A stretch of 32,909 nt of DNA, from positions 1-32,909 of the forward strand of contig JAURFB010000024.1 of NCBI GenBank assembly GCA_030827165.1, written 5' to 3'. Positions 446 to 10,862 of this stretch are shown here, in pieces. The notes beneath the pieces were generated by a model that saw only the letters and a list, made by a program, of their open reading frames with translations, searched no databases and had not been told where the DNA came from. The DNA comes from Marivivens sp. (GTDB lineage Bacteria; Pseudomonadota; Alphaproteobacteria; Rhodobacterales; Rhodobacteraceae). Within the stretch, counting starts at the first letter, position 1. Every line of letters begins with the position of its first letter. The translations under genes were made by a program, and so were the position numbers.

Positions 446-586
446 TAGTTTGCTAGACCGGCACCATTTGACTGCGGCCCTTGCGTTGCTTCTTTCCTTC
501 ATACAGCCCCATTTCGATGCATGCGATGTATCTGAGTGACCTTCCTCAGAAATTTTGTGATTAATTTACGAAGCAAACTATCATCA

Positions 587-1180
587 ATGATCCGCCCCTT
601 GGTTGCGCTCATTGCATTAATGACAGGAGGAGCGGCAATGGCATACGAAGAACCTTCTTATCGTGTTGTGCACCAAGGGGGTGAATATGAAATTCGACAA
701 TATGAAGATCGAATAGCAGCACAAGTCACGTCCGGCGGGAGCCAAAATGGGTCATTCGGATTACTGTTCCAGTACATTTCTGGCGCAAATACTGCTTCAG
801 AGAAGGTGGCTATGACTACACCAGTGGCCCAATCAGAAAAGATCGCAATGACGGTGCCTGTCGCTCAGTCCTCTGGTGGCCAATCGGGCTTCATGCAATT
901 CTTTCTCCCAGCGCAATACACGCTGGAGACCGCACCAAAGCCCACGAACCCTCGCGTCGAAATCGTAAGCGTCGAAGGCGGCTACTACGCGGTGCGAACC
1001 TACAAGGGTAGTGCGAATGAAAAGAATTTTCTAAAAGCACAGTCAGATTTGCTGAACCAGTTGGCCGTAGACGGAGTTGCTGCATCTGGCCAGGTGATTA
1101 GAGCTACTTACAATGGCCCATTCACCCCTCCCTTCATGAGACGAAACGAGGCAATGGTCAGGGTCGACTGGAATGGATGA
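587..1180 (+). CDS. SOUL-family haem-binding-like protein, exported
   Basis: The 197-residue protein has a clear signal peptide, MIRPLVALIALMTGGAAMA, with likely cleavage before YEEP. The mature part has SOUL/HBP features: Y-R-V-V-x-Q-G-G-E-Y-E-I-R-x-Y near its start, paired KVAMTTPV and KIAMTVPV strands, and a C-terminal YNGPFTPPFMRRNE motif typical of the family. SOUL proteins bind haem or related tetrapyrroles; here the site would be periplasmic. The frame is open back to GTG 536, but the ATG at 587 starts exactly at the signal peptide and is preferred. It precedes the photolyase block but is not in an operon with it. Codon use is AT-richer than in the right half of the window. Confidence 0.88.
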   Translation: MIRPLVALIALMTGGAAMAYEEPSYRVVHQGGEYEIRQYEDRIAAQVTSGGSQNGSFGLLFQYISGANTASEKVAMTTPVAQSEKIAMTVPVAQSSGGQSGFMQFFLPAQYTLETAPKPTNPRVEIVSVEGGYYAVRTYKGSANEKNFLKAQSDLLNQLAVDGVAASGQVIRATYNGPFTPPFMRRNEAMVRVDWNG

Positions 1181-1335
1181 GCGTTAGGTCGCACTTCTCT
1201 ATGTGTCACCTGCCACTCTTATCAGACCCTCTTTTGCTAGGATCTCCTCATGGCACGGTCGGAAGACGCAGCTAATTACCCACATGCCAGACAGCATCCT
1301 TCAACGTCTCAAGCCAATTTCTATATTGCGCCGCA

Positions 1336-1824
1336 TCACCTGTTTGGCGCCACTCCTGTCCCAGATCTAGGCTTCGCGGTCGAGACGCCGAGTTTGGATA
1401 ATGCCATCGAGATTGCGGGGCGGATCCACAGAAATCCCCTGTAGAACAGTTCCAAAGCCGCCAACGTCCCAGGAAGAGACGCAACCTTCGCCAACCAAGA
1501 CCAGTTTGGCAGGGCACGCCAAATCTCTACAAACGCATCGGCTCCTGAAATCAGAACACCGTCGTGACGGCGGACGTGAAAGCGTCGCATGGCCTCTTCA
1601 AGTGCCAAATCATGAACCGTATCGCCGTCCCCTTGAGACACATCTACGAGTTTGAGGTTGGTTCCTCCAATTCTTGAGGCATAGAACGCTATCTCCCTCG
1701 TGCACAGTGGGCACGACCCATCATAGTAAAGGGTCGGACCGCAAGGGCCGTTCTGGGGGATCTCTATGGGTCCTGAAGCGGTCGCATCCTGACGAAATCT
1801 GATCATCGCGAGTTTCATTCTCAT
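1336..1824 (-). CDS. DCC-family thiol-disulfide oxidoreductase (DUF393)
   Basis: The protein is 162 residues, with the family signature LYYDGSCPLCTREIAFY at residues 32-48. The CxxC pair is C38 and C41 in a thioredoxin-like N-terminus. Later come the typical GADAFVEIWRALP and a C-terminal hydrophobic stretch with a YRGFLWIRP-type segment. The DCC family is named for its DxxCxxC motif; activity is presumed redox and the substrate is unknown. ATG 1824 lies just after the photolyase stop (1827), so the two genes are probably co-transcribed. ATG 1818 and ATG 1806 are in-frame alternatives. DUF393 next to photolyase genes is a recurring bacterial arrangement, which supports a role in light or oxidative damage. 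Confidence 0.88.
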   Translation of the reverse strand: MRMKLAMIRFRQDATASGPIEIPQNGPCGPTLYYDGSCPLCTREIAFYASRIGGTNLKLVDVSQGDGDTVHDLALEEAMRRFHVRRHDGVLISGADAFVEIWRALPNWSWLAKVASLPGTLAALELFYRGFLWIRPAISMALSKLGVSTAKPRSGTGVAPNR

Positions 1825-1826
1825 GC

Positions 1827-3281
1827 CTAAAGAATTAGAGCCTGTTCGATCATTAAAGTGCCGTCTTGACCTCGATTTTGGTAGGCGTTCAGAGCCCGAT
1901 TGCGCCCTTCGGAAAGCCCGACGAGGGGCTTGGGATATTGATTTGCAGCGGAGAGGTCCCAACTGCGCGGGCAGGCCTCAAAGAATTCCAGAGCCTCGGG
2001 TCCTGGTTTGGGCGCAAGTTCGGCGACATACCGGTGAATGTAGGTGTTATGTGGATCAAATTTCTCGGCCTGTGTCTCGGGGTTGAAGATGCGAAAATAG
2101 GGGGCCGCATCCGGCCCTGAACCTGCCACCCACTGCCAACCCATCGCATTTGCTGCAGGGTCCCAGTCGATCAGGCACTCTTCAAACCACTTCTGACCAA
2201 CCCGCCAATGCTTCATCATGTGTTTGGTCAAATACGATCCAACGATCATACGGCTGCGATTATGCATATGGCCAGTGACGTACATCTCGCGCATCGCCGC
2301 ATCGACGAAGGGAATGCCCGTTCGGCCCTGTTTCCATCGCAGAACATCGCCATCGTCCTCCAGAGACCAAGGAAAAGCATCCCATTCGGGCCTCCAGTTT
2401 TGTGTGGTGATACGAGGGGTATGGAAGACTAGTTGATACGCAAACTCTCGCCAGACCAACTCCTGAAGGAAATGCTCGGCACCGCGACTACCTTCAAGAA
2501 GCGCTCGCATACCTGCGTGCCAAACAGTCCGCGGCCCTATCTCCCCCCAAGCCAGGTTCTCGGATAGCCGGGATGTGGCAAGTTCGGCGGGAAAATCCCT
2601 TCGGCTCTTGTATGCGTCGATCCGCGACATCAAGAAATCTGATAGGCGCTCTAGTGCCCTTTTCTCCCCCACACAGGCGTATCGAGTCAAAAAGGGCGCA
2701 CCACGGTGAACGCCATCTCCTAGACGCAGATCTTGCAGATGGACACTTTCCGGCCATTGAGTAGGCACCCTCAGCCTTCGGGGCGCATGTTCGGGTGCAG
2801 AAACAGAAAGCTTTCTGACGGCACGCCACATTGGACTAAATACCTTGTAGAACTCGCCCGACTTTGGACTGACGTTCCAGGGTTCAAAAAGGAGGTGGCC
2901 CGGGAAACTCTTTGCCTCAATGCCTGAAGCTTTTAGTAGCTTCTTGACGTCCGTGTCTCTCGCGACTGCATCGGGGTCATATGCTCGCGTCCACCAAACG
3001 TCCTGAGCGCCTGTTTCTTTCACGAGCGCATTCAAGGCCTCAGTCGCGTTCCCACGCCTCAAGACAAGACGTGAACCCACTTCTTCTAGTGAATGTCCGA
3101 AGGTCTTGATTGCTTGGGCGAGCCGCCACTTCGGGGCGGCTCCAAAGGTCCCGGCTACCTCGTCGAGAATGAATACCGGAATGATTGGCCTACCAGTTTG
3201 GCAGGCCTCAGCCAGTGCCGGATGATCTCCCAGTCTGAAATCCCTGCGAAACCACAAAATGATAGGTGAGGAATTGTCCAT
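1827..3281 (-). CDS. phrB: Deoxyribodipyrimidine photolyase (class I cryptochrome/photolyase family)
   Basis: A full-length 484-residue flavoprotein predicted to split UV-induced cyclobutane pyrimidine dimers in DNA using blue light and FADH-. The N-terminal antenna domain starts ILWFRRDFRLGDHPAL. The C-terminal FAD domain shows the family blocks LSENLAWGEIGPR, ELVWREFAYQL, GRTGIPFVDAAMREMYVTGHMHNRSRM and LIDWDPAANAMGWQWVAGSGPDAAPYFRIFNP, ending with YPKPLVGLSEGRNRALNAYQ. ATG 3281 has an AAGGA site upstream. DUF393 follows immediately on the same strand. DUF2256 and a short-chain dehydrogenase diverge on the other side, as in light-inducible photoprotection clusters. The symbol is given by family; the exact lesion specificity is not shown by sequence. 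Confidence 0.95.
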   Translation of the reverse strand: MDNSSPIILWFRRDFRLGDHPALAEACQTGRPIIPVFILDEVAGTFGAAPKWRLAQAIKTFGHSLEEVGSRLVLRRGNATEALNALVKETGAQDVWWTRAYDPDAVARDTDVKKLLKASGIEAKSFPGHLLFEPWNVSPKSGEFYKVFSPMWRAVRKLSVSAPEHAPRRLRVPTQWPESVHLQDLRLGDGVHRGAPFLTRYACVGEKRALERLSDFLMSRIDAYKSRRDFPAELATSRLSENLAWGEIGPRTVWHAGMRALLEGSRGAEHFLQELVWREFAYQLVFHTPRITTQNWRPEWDAFPWSLEDDGDVLRWKQGRTGIPFVDAAMREMYVTGHMHNRSRMIVGSYLTKHMMKHWRVGQKWFEECLIDWDPAANAMGWQWVAGSGPDAAPYFRIFNPETQAEKFDPHNTYIHRYVAELAPKPGPEALEFFEACPRSWDLSAANQYPKPLVGLSEGRNRALNAYQNRGQDGTLMIEQALIL

Positions 3282-3547
3282 TTGCGTCCTTCAATGCTTG
3301 TTCTTGATACGGTCACTCAATTCAAGGCGATCAAAAAAATCGGGCGGCTTGTCGGGAAATCCACAGAACTTTCATCAGCACATGCAACGGCCCAGTACTG
3401 CCAAGCCCTTCTGGCGAGGCCATTTATTCACCTCACGAGATAGCGGTCGTTGTGGGAAATGATCCGACTGATCTACAGCACTGGCTGAGGCGTAGCAGAT
3501 AGAGGCCAAATTTGGTCTTGTTCGTAACCATGGAATGCCGGTGCGGG

Positions 3548-3706
3548 ATGACCAAATATACAAAACAAAAAGGTAATCTGCCCCAAAAGCCATGCCATTC
3601 TTGCGGCCGACCATTCACCTGGCGGCGCAAATGGTCAGCCTGCTGGGACGATGTCAGATACTGTTCCGAAAGATGCCACCGATCGCGGCGAGGAGCAGCG
3701 AAATGA
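3548..3706 (+). CDS. DUF2256 family small zinc-finger-like protein
   Basis: The protein is 52 residues with the whole DUF2256 pattern: LPQKPCHSCGRPFTWRRKW, then WDDVRYCSERCHRSRR. Four cysteines in two CxxC-like pairs (CHSC and CSERC) probably bind zinc. The function is unknown. Family members often sit beside photolyase, cryptochrome and short-chain dehydrogenase genes, as here. The next gene starts inside the stop of this one (ATGA at 3703-3706), so translation is likely coupled. The frame is open further back (ATG 3530, and 3512 as an alternative start), but the conserved family region fits the ATG at 3548. Confidence 0.85.
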   Translation: MTKYTKQKGNLPQKPCHSCGRPFTWRRKWSACWDDVRYCSERCHRSRRGAAK

Positions 3707-4368
3707 CTGGAAGAGCACTTGTGATAGGGGCATCGGGCGGGATTGGAGGGGCGCTTTCTAAGGCCCTAATGCTTGCAGGAAATGCGGTTCTTGAAATCTC
3801 TAGGTCAAGGGATGGATTCGACATCACTGATCCATCGAGTGTAGCTGACCATCTCGAAAAGCTCGATGGGACCTTTGACAAGGTCCTGATCGCGACTGGA
3901 ATCCTTGCCCCGTCAAACAAACGCCCTGAAAAGTCACTCTCAGAGATTGAGGCCGGCGATATGGCGCATGTCTTTGCAGTAAATGCCATCGGACCGGCAC
4001 TCGTCCTCAGCCATGCTGCAAGGCTCCTCCCGCTCAAGCAGCGGGCTATCGTCGGTGTTCTTACCGCGCGTGTCGGCTCTATTGGAGACAATGGTTTGGG
4101 GGGATGGTACAGTTATCGCGCTTCAAAGGCTGCCGCGAACCAGGTTGTACGCACCGCCTCGATCGAAATCGCGCGGAAACGGAAAAATTCGATTGTAGTG
4201 GCACTGCATCCCGGAACGGTATCGACACCGTTTACGGACGCCTACCCTGCTCATAGCAAAGTGTCCCCTGACGTAGCGGCTGAGAATATTCTTAGCGTTC
4301 TGGAAGGGCTGGAGCCGTCGGACAATGGCAACTTCTTTGACTGGGCGGGGAAACCTGTTCCATGGTAA
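3703..4368 (+). CDS. Short-chain dehydrogenase/reductase (SDR)
   Basis: A 221-residue single-domain Rossmann oxidoreductase. The NAD(P)-binding motif GASGGIG lies at residues 9-15, an NAG-like ATG at 65-67, the catalytic Ser near 126 and the Tyr-Lys pair in YRASK (Y138, K142). It is shorter than the usual 250 residues, as in the CsgA/C-factor-like SDR subgroup. The start overlaps the DUF2256 stop and has AGGAG about 8 bases upstream. The substrate cannot be read from the sequence. Its pairing with DUF2256 and the divergent photolyase suggests it belongs to a light or oxidative stress response. Confidence 0.9.
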   Translation: MTGRALVIGASGGIGGALSKALMLAGNAVLEISRSRDGFDITDPSSVADHLEKLDGTFDKVLIATGILAPSNKRPEKSLSEIEAGDMAHVFAVNAIGPALVLSHAARLLPLKQRAIVGVLTARVGSIGDNGLGGWYSYRASKAAANQVVRTASIEIARKRKNSIVVALHPGTVSTPFTDAYPAHSKVSPDVAAENILSVLEGLEPSDNGNFFDWAGKPVPW

Positions 4369-4837
4369 AGTACGGGCCCTTCGCGCTGTGATCAGCCCCA
4401 TCTGACTGGTCCAATTTGAATGTTAGTGCATGATTGGCCTGGGTTCCATCGGCACGATGCTTTCCGGCGCGGGCGGGCGATATCCCAATGAGCTTTGCGA
4501 GCTCTTGACGCGGCTCCTAGATCAACGATTGTCGAGCTGCCGGATAATCTCCGAAACCTCTGACCCTTGGCACCGCTTGTTTCCTAACAGAGACTGAGAC
4601 AGCCCCCGCCACCGCATTCGCTCTATCGTCATGGCTGCTGGGCGCATGGTCGATAATGTCTCGGCCGCCTCGCGTGGTGCGGCGCTCAAAGCCGACCAGC
4701 TGCTTCTTCAACTCTGGGCACGGGGGCAGCTCTATAACTCCGGCGCTGAGCGCTGGGGCAAAGTGACGTGGTCGGACGGAACACTCGCCTTACGGCGCCA
4801 GTCTGCCTTTGATTCCATCGATTCTAAGGAGGATCAG
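4369..4837. other. Stretch without a recognised gene; possible decayed reading frame
   Basis: No family is recognisable here. On the plus strand one frame reads ATG 4430 to a TGA at 4595-4597 (55 codons). After that TGA the same frame stays open to 4843 (with an ATG at 4631, 70 codons, ending KEDQW). The two halves could be one gene with an in-frame stop, but neither half resembles anything I know, and the ribosome binding sites are poor. The base composition of the second half is closer to the core genome than to the flanking accessory genes. Confidence 0.35.
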
Positions 4838-4882
4838 TGGTGAGCCGTGCAGGATTCATACCTGCGACCCACTGTTTAAAAG
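4838..4882 (-). repeat. Decayed 3' half of a tRNA-Lys gene (old attachment-site-like remnant)
   Basis: Read on the minus strand, this is the 3' half of a bacterial tRNA-Lys. It has the anticodon loop CTTTTAA (4882-4876), the anticodon stem 3' strand, the variable loop, the T stem GCAGG/CCTGC, the acceptor strand ACGGCTC, a discriminator A and an encoded CCA (4840-4838). The T loop reads TATGAAT instead of the usual TTCGAAT, and the anticodon stem is imperfect. Sequence 5' of the anticodon loop does not form the rest of a tRNA. Such halves, broken at the anticodon loop, are typical leftovers of integration at a tRNA gene. It is not a functional tRNA. Confidence 0.8.
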
Positions 4883-4951
4883 TTTCTGACCCACTAATAT
4901 TTTGAAACTAGACATTCTTGCATCTCAGTAACCGCTCAATAGATTGCGGAG

Positions 4952-5926
4952 ATGCTGCGTCTCCTGCTTCTTATTTCGGTCCTAATCGCACTCTTCGTGT
5001 TGATTGTCCTCTGGTTGACCCAACGCCATGAGGCTGAGGCAACTTCGGCTTACCCGCCGGAGGGGCAGTTCCTCGAGGTCAGCGGGCGAAAAGTCCATGC
5101 AGTCGTATTGGGAAACGGTCCGGATCTAGTGCTGATCCACGGGGCGAACGGCAATACGCGTGACATGACATTCTCTTTGGCGAGCGAGCTGACTGACCGC
5201 TACCGGATCATCATCTTCGACCGCCCGGGTCTGGGCTATACAGACAGGGTCAGCCCCAGTTTTGCCGGAGCGTTTGCAACTCGGGGTGAAAGTCCTGCCG
5301 AACAGGCGGCCATGTTGCAGAAGGCGGCTGCAATGCTAGGGGCGGATCGACCCATAGTGTTGGGTCACTCTTACGGCGGTGCGGTTGCGCTTGCTTGGGC
5401 GGTCACTATGCCTGACACCTTGGCGGCAGTGGTGTCGGTAGGCGGGGTATCTCTGCCTTGGCCGGGAAAATTGGACCCTCTCTATCGCTACGTCGGGACG
5501 TCATTGGGCGGAGCGCTATTGGCCCCGGTTTTGTCAGCGTTTGTTCCGGACAGGTATGTGTCGGACACAATTGAGTTGATCTTTGCTCCCTCGGAAGCGC
5601 CAAGGGGCTATTCAGACTACGTCGGACCTGCGCTTTCTCTAAGGAGCGACACGATACGGGCGAACTCACGTCAGGTGAATGATCTGCGCCCCTACATTGT
5701 CGAAATGTCAAAGTCCTATCCAGAACTGGTTCTTCCAGTCGAGTTGGTGCACGGGACCTCCGACGCCATCGTTCCAATTGATGTTCACGCGCGACCGGTG
5801 TCACTCGTCCTACCGAACGCAATTTTGACTGAAATTGAGGGAGCGGGGCATATGCCGCATCACACCCACGCTGATGTAGTCATCGCCGCCATTGATCGAG
5901 CCGCGCGGCGTGCTGGTTTTCCCTAG
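4952..5926 (+). CDS. Membrane-anchored alpha/beta hydrolase
   Basis: The protein has 324 residues. An N-terminal hydrophobic helix (about residues 2-22, LRLLLLISVLIALFVLIVLW) is followed by a Thr/Gln/Arg turn, so it is probably an inner-membrane anchor with the catalytic domain outside. The hydrolase domain shows the oxyanion segment LIHGANGN (62-68), the nucleophile elbow GHSYGG with S140, the acid HGTSDAIVP (D271) and the His GAGHMPHH (H300). The substrate is unknown; esterase, lipase or haloperoxidase-like enzymes all fit. It stands alone on the plus strand, just downstream of the tRNA-Lys remnant, and may be cargo of an integrated element. Confidence 0.88.
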   Translation: MLRLLLLISVLIALFVLIVLWLTQRHEAEATSAYPPEGQFLEVSGRKVHAVVLGNGPDLVLIHGANGNTRDMTFSLASELTDRYRIIIFDRPGLGYTDRVSPSFAGAFATRGESPAEQAAMLQKAAAMLGADRPIVLGHSYGGAVALAWAVTMPDTLAAVVSVGGVSLPWPGKLDPLYRYVGTSLGGALLAPVLSAFVPDRYVSDTIELIFAPSEAPRGYSDYVGPALSLRSDTIRANSRQVNDLRPYIVEMSKSYPELVLPVELVHGTSDAIVPIDVHARPVSLVLPNAILTEIEGAGHMPHHTHADVVIAAIDRAARRAGFP

Positions 5927-6793: not shown

Positions 6794-8344
6794 CTACGCT
6801 ACGAAGCCCCAGTCGGGCTGTTCGAGAGCCTGCAACAAGCCATCGGACAGAAACTTCGGCGGCATCATAGTCCCGTATTTCTCGTGTATCTTCGTGCTTT
6901 CAGGAGACTCGTGACCGATGATGTAATGTTGATGGTCGGTTCTCATGCCTGAGGCTCGCATCTTGTCTGTGAGAGTATGACGGAACGAGTAGGGTACTAG
7001 ACCCTCAACCTTGCCGCCCAGTAGCTTTGAAAGCCTGTTGCGCAGATTCACACTGACGTTTTGCGCTCCCTTGGCGTTTCCAAACCTCGGAAAGAACGCT
7101 TCACTGAGACCGGATGGGGCGGAATACTTTGCCAACGCCTTGGCTAGCTCTGGGACTATTGGCACGGCTCTGGATCGGGTGTCCTTGTCGAGCGTCCTAA
7201 TATCGTTGTCTTTGAACACAATGTACGGGACTTCGGCTCGCAGGTGCACGTCTTGAACCTCCAGCCCAGAGGCAGCTTCAGTCCTGCAACCTGTGAAAGC
7301 CATTATAAGGCCAATCAAGCCAACTTCCTGTATCCGGTCTTGCTTCAAAAGTTCGATGTAAGCCCGCCACTGATTTGGGTTGAACGACACTCTAGCGGAA
7401 GCGTGTTTCTGCTCTAGCTTTGAGTTTGGCAAGCCAGCGAAGGGATTGAATAGGTTCGAGTTCGTTTCAGTGTTCCAGTTGTTCAGGATGGCTGACAGGA
7501 TGTTGATGTATTTGTTATGGGTTCCGTAGTTCGGCCAAGCGGCCCTACATCCTGACCTAACCTTGCTTCGATCTAGGTCGGCAAGTTTGGTTTCATTGCC
7601 GCTGAAAAGGCCCCCAACCACCCTGATAGCAGTCTCAGCCTGTAGTCTGGCTTTGTGGGCCTTCTCTGGGGAGCGGTCAGGCTTCTTGTGCGACTGGGTG
7701 TCTAAGTACAGGTGGAGGGCGTCCCATAGGGTCGGCGTGGCTTTGCTGGGGTTTCGACCCTCCAGCTGTGCCCTTATCTCAGCAACCAACTCTGGGTCAT
7801 AGCTGGCAAGCATGGGGGCCACATAGCCTTGTCCGTGCCAATGACCTGCATCGTAGTCTTTCTGCATGGTAGCGTAGTCGGTGTGGTCTTCTAAATAGTT
7901 CATGACCAACAAATCACGATAGTTCCACCAAGCCGCCAACTCACTGCGGAAATCTTCAAAGGTCTGACCTGGTTTCCTTACTGGTGGCGCTTCGCGTGGG
8001 TCGATCCCAGCTATCGCTATCATGGCCTGAGCTTCTTGGGCTTTGGTCAATGTCGCCGATGGATATCTCGCTAGTTTGCTATGAGCGTAGGCAACAGCCA
8101 ACTCAAAACGCTTGTGCTCTTTGGCGAACAGGATCAGCGCTTGTTCTCGATCCTTGGTCCCAAAAGAGACTTTCCACTCCCGCTTTCCCAAGATCGAGCG
8201 GACATCTTCAGGAACGGCTCTCCTAAATCGCCAAATCCCAGATGCGGAGCGGTCCAAGCCGGATAGCCTGTGTGCCAAAGCAGAGGTCCTTGTACCAACT
8301 TTGTACCAAAACCTTGTACCAACTTTCTGGTAAAATACCAGCAA
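6794..8344 (-). CDS. Tyrosine recombinase / integrase (DUF6538-type N-terminus)
   Basis: A 516-residue phage or island integrase. The N-terminal part (WRFRRAVPEDVRSILGKREWKVSFGTKDREQA, about 38-69) matches the DUF6538 arm-binding region. The central part (about 255-310) fits the SAM-like core-binding domain. The catalytic domain shows TGCRTEAA with R354, YSFRHT with R455, IGH with H478 and the nucleophile in HEKYG, Y490. The first position of the H-x-x-R box is Tyr (Y452). The gene reads away from the tRNA-Asn gene, which starts about 30 bp beyond it, so tRNA-Asn is the likely integration target. The ATG at 8344 lies at the edge of short direct repeats, which therefore encode the repeated KVGTR residues of the N-terminus. 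A later start is possible but no ATG is available. Confidence 0.93.
   Translation of the reverse strand: MLVFYQKVGTRFWYKVGTRTSALAHRLSGLDRSASGIWRFRRAVPEDVRSILGKREWKVSFGTKDREQALILFAKEHKRFELAVAYAHSKLARYPSATLTKAQEAQAMIAIAGIDPREAPPVRKPGQTFEDFRSELAAWWNYRDLLVMNYLEDHTDYATMQKDYDAGHWHGQGYVAPMLASYDPELVAEIRAQLEGRNPSKATPTLWDALHLYLDTQSHKKPDRSPEKAHKARLQAETAIRVVGGLFSGNETKLADLDRSKVRSGCRAAWPNYGTHNKYINILSAILNNWNTETNSNLFNPFAGLPNSKLEQKHASARVSFNPNQWRAYIELLKQDRIQEVGLIGLIMAFTGCRTEAASGLEVQDVHLRAEVPYIVFKDNDIRTLDKDTRSRAVPIVPELAKALAKYSAPSGLSEAFFPRFGNAKGAQNVSVNLRNRLSKLLGGKVEGLVPYSFRHTLTDKMRASGMRTDHQHYIIGHESPESTKIHEKYGTMMPPKFLSDGLLQALEQPDWGFVA
8288..8326 (+). repeat. Short direct repeats at the integrase start (possible arm-type sites)
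   Basis: The 15-mer CCTTGTACCAACTTT occurs at 8288-8302 and again at 8312-8326, 24 bp apart. A third TTGTACCA lies at 8301-8308, so the octamer occurs three times (8290, 8301, 8314). They sit between the catalytic part of the integrase gene and the tRNA. This is where integrase arm-binding or excisionase sites are expected. Confidence 0.7.
8327..8341. promoter_or_regulatory. Perfect palindrome at the integrase start codon
   Basis: CTGGTA (8327-8332), AAA, TACCAG (8336-8341) form a perfect 6-bp inverted repeat. It overlaps the presumed integrase start codon and shares the TACCA core with the neighbouring direct repeats. It may be a binding site for the integrase or an excisionase-type regulator that represses integrase expression. 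This is inference from position and symmetry only. Confidence 0.45.
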
Positions 8345-8376: not shown

Positions 8377-8451
8377 TGGCTCCGGCGGTAGGGATCGAAC
8401 CTACGACCAATTGATTAACAGTCAACTGCTCTACCGCTGAGCTACGCCGGA
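8377..8451 (-). tRNA. tRNA-Asn (anticodon GTT)
   Basis: A complete cloverleaf reads on the minus strand from 8451. It has the acceptor TCCGGCG/CGCCGGA, a D arm with AGCTCAGCGGTAGAGC, the anticodon loop CTGTTAA (GTT), the T arm GTAGG-TTCGATC-CCTAC, a discriminator G and an encoded CCA at 8379-8377. Its 3' end faces the integrase gene. All stems pair, so the gene appears functional even though an element seems to have integrated at its 3' end. Confidence 0.97.
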
Positions 8452-10796: not shown

Positions 10797-10862
10797 GGGG
10801 GCTCTGCCCCCGCCGCCCTTGCGGGCGGCTCCCCCGGAGTATTTGCGGCCAAAAGAAGGGGG
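10797..10862 (+). repeat. Structured dispersed intergenic repeat, single copy
   Basis: Directly after the kinase stop come three parts. They are GGGGGC-TCT-GCCCCC (10797-10811), a perfect hairpin GCCGCCC-TTGC-GGGCGGC (10812-10829), and TCCCCCGGAGTATTTGCGG, whose C run can pair with GGGGG at 10858-10862. The same order of parts recurs at 19354-19492 with a different but again self-complementary central hairpin. It may also terminate the kinase transcript. Confidence 0.8.

Follow-up and report, generated by a model that had tools for sequence, protein, structure and literature searches.

Anticodon-loop ('A') attachment sites form a described class for tRNA-targeting islands, documented in the Islander database (PMC4383910). 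A published survey of Rhodobacteraceae prophages likewise reports tRNA genes as integration sites, tRNA-Asn included, and does not list tRNA-Lys (PMC8224337). Here we describe a fragment of tRNA-Lys in the accessory DNA of a Marivivens sp. contig (the whole analysed stretch of 32,909 nucleotides is hereafter called the window). It is probably a relocated junction, originally the chromosome-side (distal) attachment junction of a former tRNA-Lys integrative element. Relics of this kind are ordinary, but the relocated flank is unusual. The scar illustrates that accessory DNA can contain a tRNA fragment at a place where no integration occurred; the sequence past the CCA tells which side of the junction is present and whether the fragment was moved.

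A decayed tRNA-Lys 3′ half and the flank beyond its CCA

Using the 45-base 3′ half of tRNA-Lys(TTT) as a query and allowing up to three mismatches, we scanned the window and 100 shuffled versions of it. The window gave a match at a single place (4838-4882, minus strand) and the shuffles gave none; the resemblance is not due to chance. Neither ARAGORN nor Rfam calls a tRNA at this position, and the sequence is therefore a fragment. A previous sequence-only reading of this DNA had described it as running from the anticodon loop of tRNA-Lys through the CCA with a drifted T loop, and both points hold. The homology extends from C32 to the CCA with 3/45 mismatches (T to A at 4875, T to A at 4859 and C to T at 4858), the last two of which convert the T loop from TTCGAAT to TATGAAT. 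The fragment covers the 3′ end of the tDNA and not an internal part, and its edge lies in the anticodon loop, a known crossover region, as in the Islander definition. Its core is decayed, which sets it apart from the site that a functional tRNA-Lys element would keep intact. The features of the region are collected in Table 1.

Table 1. Features of the window around the tRNA-Lys fragment and the tRNA-Asn gene
Feature	Coordinates	Strand	Remarks
SOUL-photolyase-SDR cluster, accessory DNA	536..4368		Neighbouring genes
IS3-family element, 3′ end remnant	4389..4504	-	84% to other copies in the genome, located at contig ends
Unassigned DNA to the left of the captured piece	4505..4756		No match in the genome or in 394 family genomes; 70-aa ORF without Pfam/PHROGs match
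Last 11 amidohydrolase codons, GKVTWSDGTLA	4757..4789	+	Stop TGA changed to TTA
Spacer, amidohydrolase end to tRNA CCA	4790..4837	+	48 bases, as long as at G000:C116; alignable in part to G003 and G002
tRNA-Lys(TTT) 3′ half, C32 of anticodon loop to CCA	4838..4882	-	3 mismatches; attachment-site core remains
5′ edge of tRNA homology (junction)	4883..4884		Same base as 13 other family junctions
Intact alpha/beta hydrolase gene	4952..5926	+	Starts 68 bases from the junction, in the place expected for an integrase
Tyrosine integrase (DUF6538 + Phage_integrase) of the tRNA-Asn island	6794..8344	-	Only distantly similar to integrases beside tRNA-Lys halves
Intact tRNA-Asn(GTT)	8377..8451	-	Right border of the low-GC accessory DNA

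Past the CCA, the homology continues from 4837 down to 4757, that is for 81 bases, into the tail of an amidohydrolase gene, a feature absent from the sequence-only reading. This stretch is the chromosomal flank that follows tRNA-Lys in the genus, and it matches the flank of the empty locus of the congeners G001 and G002, again as in the Islander definition. Aligned without the tRNA part, it scores 22-28, whereas 2,000 shuffles gave means of 9-9.5 and at most 17-19. No amidohydrolase remains were found left of 4757 by tblastn. The window tail peptide has a serine where that of the intact gene in the same genome (contig C116 of G000, the window's genome) has a threonine (GKVTWTDGTLA). At the DNA level the two tails differ at 7/33 bases, with 6/7 differences at third codon positions (binomial chance of about 0.007 by our own arithmetic), and the tail of the sampled congeners differs from that of C116 at two bases. 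The third-position bias indicates that the tail was still coding when most of the differences accumulated, in line with an origin in another lineage. It favours a tail that would have diverged within a functional gene of another lineage, been captured and then decayed slowly, on the basis of few sites (seven differences). Among 30 amidohydrolase orthologues, two of them from this genus, the amidohydrolase/tRNA-Lys pair and the TW(S/T)DGTLA tail are confined to the genus; the tails of the 28 from other genera are different, and no tRNA-Lys lies within 1.5 kb on either side of these genes. The source should therefore be this genus or a very near relative, and the donor lineage would be marked by an intact amidohydrolase gene with the last codons GGCAAAGTGACGTGGTCGGACGGAACACTCGCC beside tRNA-Lys.

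The intact tRNA-Lys(TTT) gene, which the sequence-only reading had suggested locating, lies at G000:C73:10-85. Unrelated pieces could in principle have been joined at a tRNA sequence in the draft, as might happen in an incomplete genome of 129 contigs, and there is a sharp GC change at tRNA-Asn. However, the fragment differs by three bases from every intact copy and its flank by about 24% from that of the other loci, and it is thus not a mis-joined copy of them; we regard such an assembly artefact as very improbable.

tRNA-Lys as a recurrent integration site in the family

In G001 and G002 the site is empty: dapF, tRNA-Lys and the amidohydrolase gene are contiguous, the tRNA and the amidohydrolase gene being in convergent orientation. 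The same site is occupied in the window's genome, where the locus is split over C73 and C116, two contigs that are not physically joined in the draft. At the C73 end, the intact tRNA-Lys is followed by TGAAATCA, an element-type flank that also follows tRNA-Lys in several occupied genomes of the family. C116 carries, in this order, the intact amidohydrolase gene, a second and undecayed 3′ half (G000:C116:50477-50536) and a tyrosine integrase gene starting about 150 bases further on. In G004 tRNA-Lys has a different, element-like flank, and the G003 assembly breaks exactly at tRNA-Lys, which is consistent with an element there without being proof of one. In the Islander definition, a displaced fragment and its intact cognate tRNA share a replicon in direct orientation, with 2-200 kb of island separating them. 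Here the intact tRNA-Lys, the present element and the intact amidohydrolase all lie on contigs other than that of the window, and the C116 fragment is a better partner for the intact tRNA-Lys than the window fragment. Since an intact amidohydrolase already adjoins the C116 half and the real tRNA-Lys locus is elsewhere, the window scar is a second, relocated copy, in the low-GC island at tRNA-Asn. Two elements inserted in tandem at the tRNA-Lys locus of today were considered and rejected as an explanation: the half between them would be bordered by element DNA left and right, whereas the C116 half is already beside the intact amidohydrolase.

We compared the fragment with 13 genomic distal 3′ halves, from C116 and from other genomes of the family. 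All 13 are cut at one common base, CTTTTAATC. An integrase gene lies 1-178 bases from the cut and reads away from it in 11/13, and in a twelfth (L204) it is split between frames. The core is exact in 12/13, the other (L213) having two mismatches. Several of these halves have an intact tRNA-Lys on the same contig, directly oriented and at a distance of about 9 to 55 kb, and the identical 45-mer is present in four viral contigs. tRNA-Lys(TTT) is thereby documented as a recurrent integration site in the family. Across it (L065, L068 and L200-L216), integration involves several divergent integrases and one common crossover edge; at one locus (L212, G059:C1) tRNA-Lys is present as two intact genes in tandem, separated by 226 bases.

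What is chiefly in doubt is the nature of the break of the window fragment in the anticodon loop, which is probably a true crossover edge but might have arisen by chance. An illegitimate event, for example linked to the IS3 remnant, might have duplicated the end of the amidohydrolase together with the 3′ part of tRNA-Lys, starting from an empty locus and with no integration at all. The missing relic of a tRNA-Lys integrase beside the fragment, the IS3 end about 250 bases away and the directly adjoining bacterial hydrolase would all be in keeping with this. Yet the break falls at the edge common to 13/13 family junctions, and we estimate at about 3-4% the chance that a random break in a 76-base tRNA lies within approximately one base of that edge, so that a chance partial duplication appears unlikely. 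The fragment is probably not an isolated duplicate lacking a junction, and tRNA-Lys-linked elements are present in this genome and widespread in the family, two points on which the sequence-only reading had made its interpretation depend.

Surroundings of the scar and the tRNA-Asn island

Between 3901 and 8377 no second integrase or integrase relic was found, only the integrase at tRNA-Asn. The cognate integrase that accompanies an island in the Islander scheme is thus missing, and the scar is therefore classed as a relic junction and not as one end of an island that can still be recognised. Together with the position of the hydrolase start, this indicates that loss or replacement of the element side reached close to the junction. 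The hydrolase gene, whose named relatives belong to the Rhodobacteraceae, is absent at the DNA level from the four congeners, and none of 80 hydrolase loci in other genomes is associated with tRNA-Lys. When the same junction was sought in plasmids and phages, only the IS3 end and one unrelated tRNA-Lys matched. A 17-mer from beside the cut, considered as a shared element-side sequence, occurs in 11 viral contigs, none of them in a tRNA context, and was set aside as a chance match.

The IS3-family remnant, farther left, has longer copies in this genome and in its congeners, several at contig ends. The gene order of the accessory cluster is permuted, SOUL-photolyase-SDR in the window and photolyase-SDR-SOUL in G003:C26 (L069, 8163-12291), with a DNA identity of 72-77% for these genes compared with about 82% for the backbone. 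On the other side of the tRNA-Asn gene, a dispersed repeat of roughly 60 bases (10797-10860) has very many copies in this genome and in four congeners.

These surroundings bear on another route by which the junction could have moved. A tRNA-Lys element might have excised aberrantly with 81 bases of host flank, the junction inside, and later joined the tRNA-Asn island. This variant would account for the short flank and the relocation, and tRNA-Lys elements are common, but no element backbone genes are recognised around the fragment and its left neighbour (4505-4756) has no known relatives; we find it quite improbable. The scar would then record host sequence moved by an integrase from one tRNA site to another within a genus, with the element leaving tRNA-Lys with host flank and being re-installed at tRNA-Asn, a view to which we give similarly little weight.

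The GC content is roughly 48-60% left of tRNA-Asn and mostly 60-66% to its right. The sequence-only reading had placed the nearby integrase at tRNA-Asn, and its gene indeed lies against it. A homologue of this integrase in G308 (L267/L269, G308:C3) also lies against tRNA-Asn and is paired with a 17-base, 3′-terminal repeat of the tRNA 12 kb away, which suggests an acceptor-end attachment core for DUF6538-type integrases. Because this repeat is not an anticodon half, the tRNA-Asn integrase is a different system from that of the tRNA-Lys scar. With the 17-base core as a query, no distal tRNA-Asn fragment was found in the window or in the genome, and the integrase has no close relatives in viral contigs. 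The acyltransferase that flanks tRNA-Asn in G002 and G003 (L072, 8827-9702) is here on G000:C124, which bears no tRNA-Asn fragment, and the far end of the island was therefore not found in the assembly. We may wonder whether the fragment is itself the distal attachment site of the tRNA-Asn island, given its direct orientation with tRNA-Asn and the integrase between them, a canonical geometry. This is hardly credible, in view of its 18/45 mismatches to tRNA-Asn compared with 3/45 to tRNA-Lys, of the 3′-terminal repeat used by the G308 homologue and of a flank that belongs to tRNA-Lys.

Origin of the scar and comparison with known systems

The chromosome-side flank and the standard 5′ edge are both present, hence our reading of the fragment as the distal junction of a former tRNA-Lys element. 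A tyrosine integrase would have crossed over in the tRNA-Lys anticodon loop, the incoming element restoring the tRNA with its own 3′ half and displacing the old 3′ half to beside the amidohydrolase. The junction and about 81 bases of flank would then have been copied or transferred, most likely from another congeneric lineage, and have landed in the accessory island that now adjoins tRNA-Asn; the favoured route is horizontal capture within the genus. After capture, the integrase end of the element would have been lost, the amidohydrolase cut to 11 codons and the sequence left to drift, the present scar probably having no function. Against this scenario, there is no integrase on the 5′ side of the scar, unlike in 12/13 comparison junctions, the captured flank is only 81 bases long, and a search of the other genomes for the arrangement of the scar, as donor or as route, found none.

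The decayed end of a tRNA-Lys integration proposed from sequence alone thus gains support from the shared crossover edge and from the tRNA-Lys elements of the genome and family. The proposal of a second, older integration or a nested island stands in part: the older tRNA-Lys origin, independent of the tRNA-Asn integrase, is retained, but not integration or nesting in place, as the flank is relocated and no second integrase lies beside it. The two tRNA-Lys events in this one genome suggest an order of age, with the scar older and the resident element newer.

This resident element (G000:C116/C73) has the same half-tRNA edge and amidohydrolase flank as the scar, together with an undecayed half, an integrase of the Arm-DNA-bind_3/Phage_integrase type and a DUF3631 protein; both proteins are missing from the window copy, whose half is decayed. 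The 9.2-kb tRNA-Lys element of G013 (L068) shares the 45-base core and the edge and carries an integrase beside its distal half but, unlike the scar, it is complete and in place, with both ends on one contig. The prophages of Rhodobacteraceae also use tRNA genes as sites, as here, although the tRNAs listed for them do not include tRNA-Lys (PMC8224337). Finally, the scar resembles the displaced tDNA fragments of Islander (PMC4383910) in being a 3′ fragment that starts in the anticodon loop, repeats the intact tRNA directly and is linked to integrases in relatives. It differs from them in having no integrase and no island shown between it and the intact tRNA-Lys, and in having moved with its host flank.
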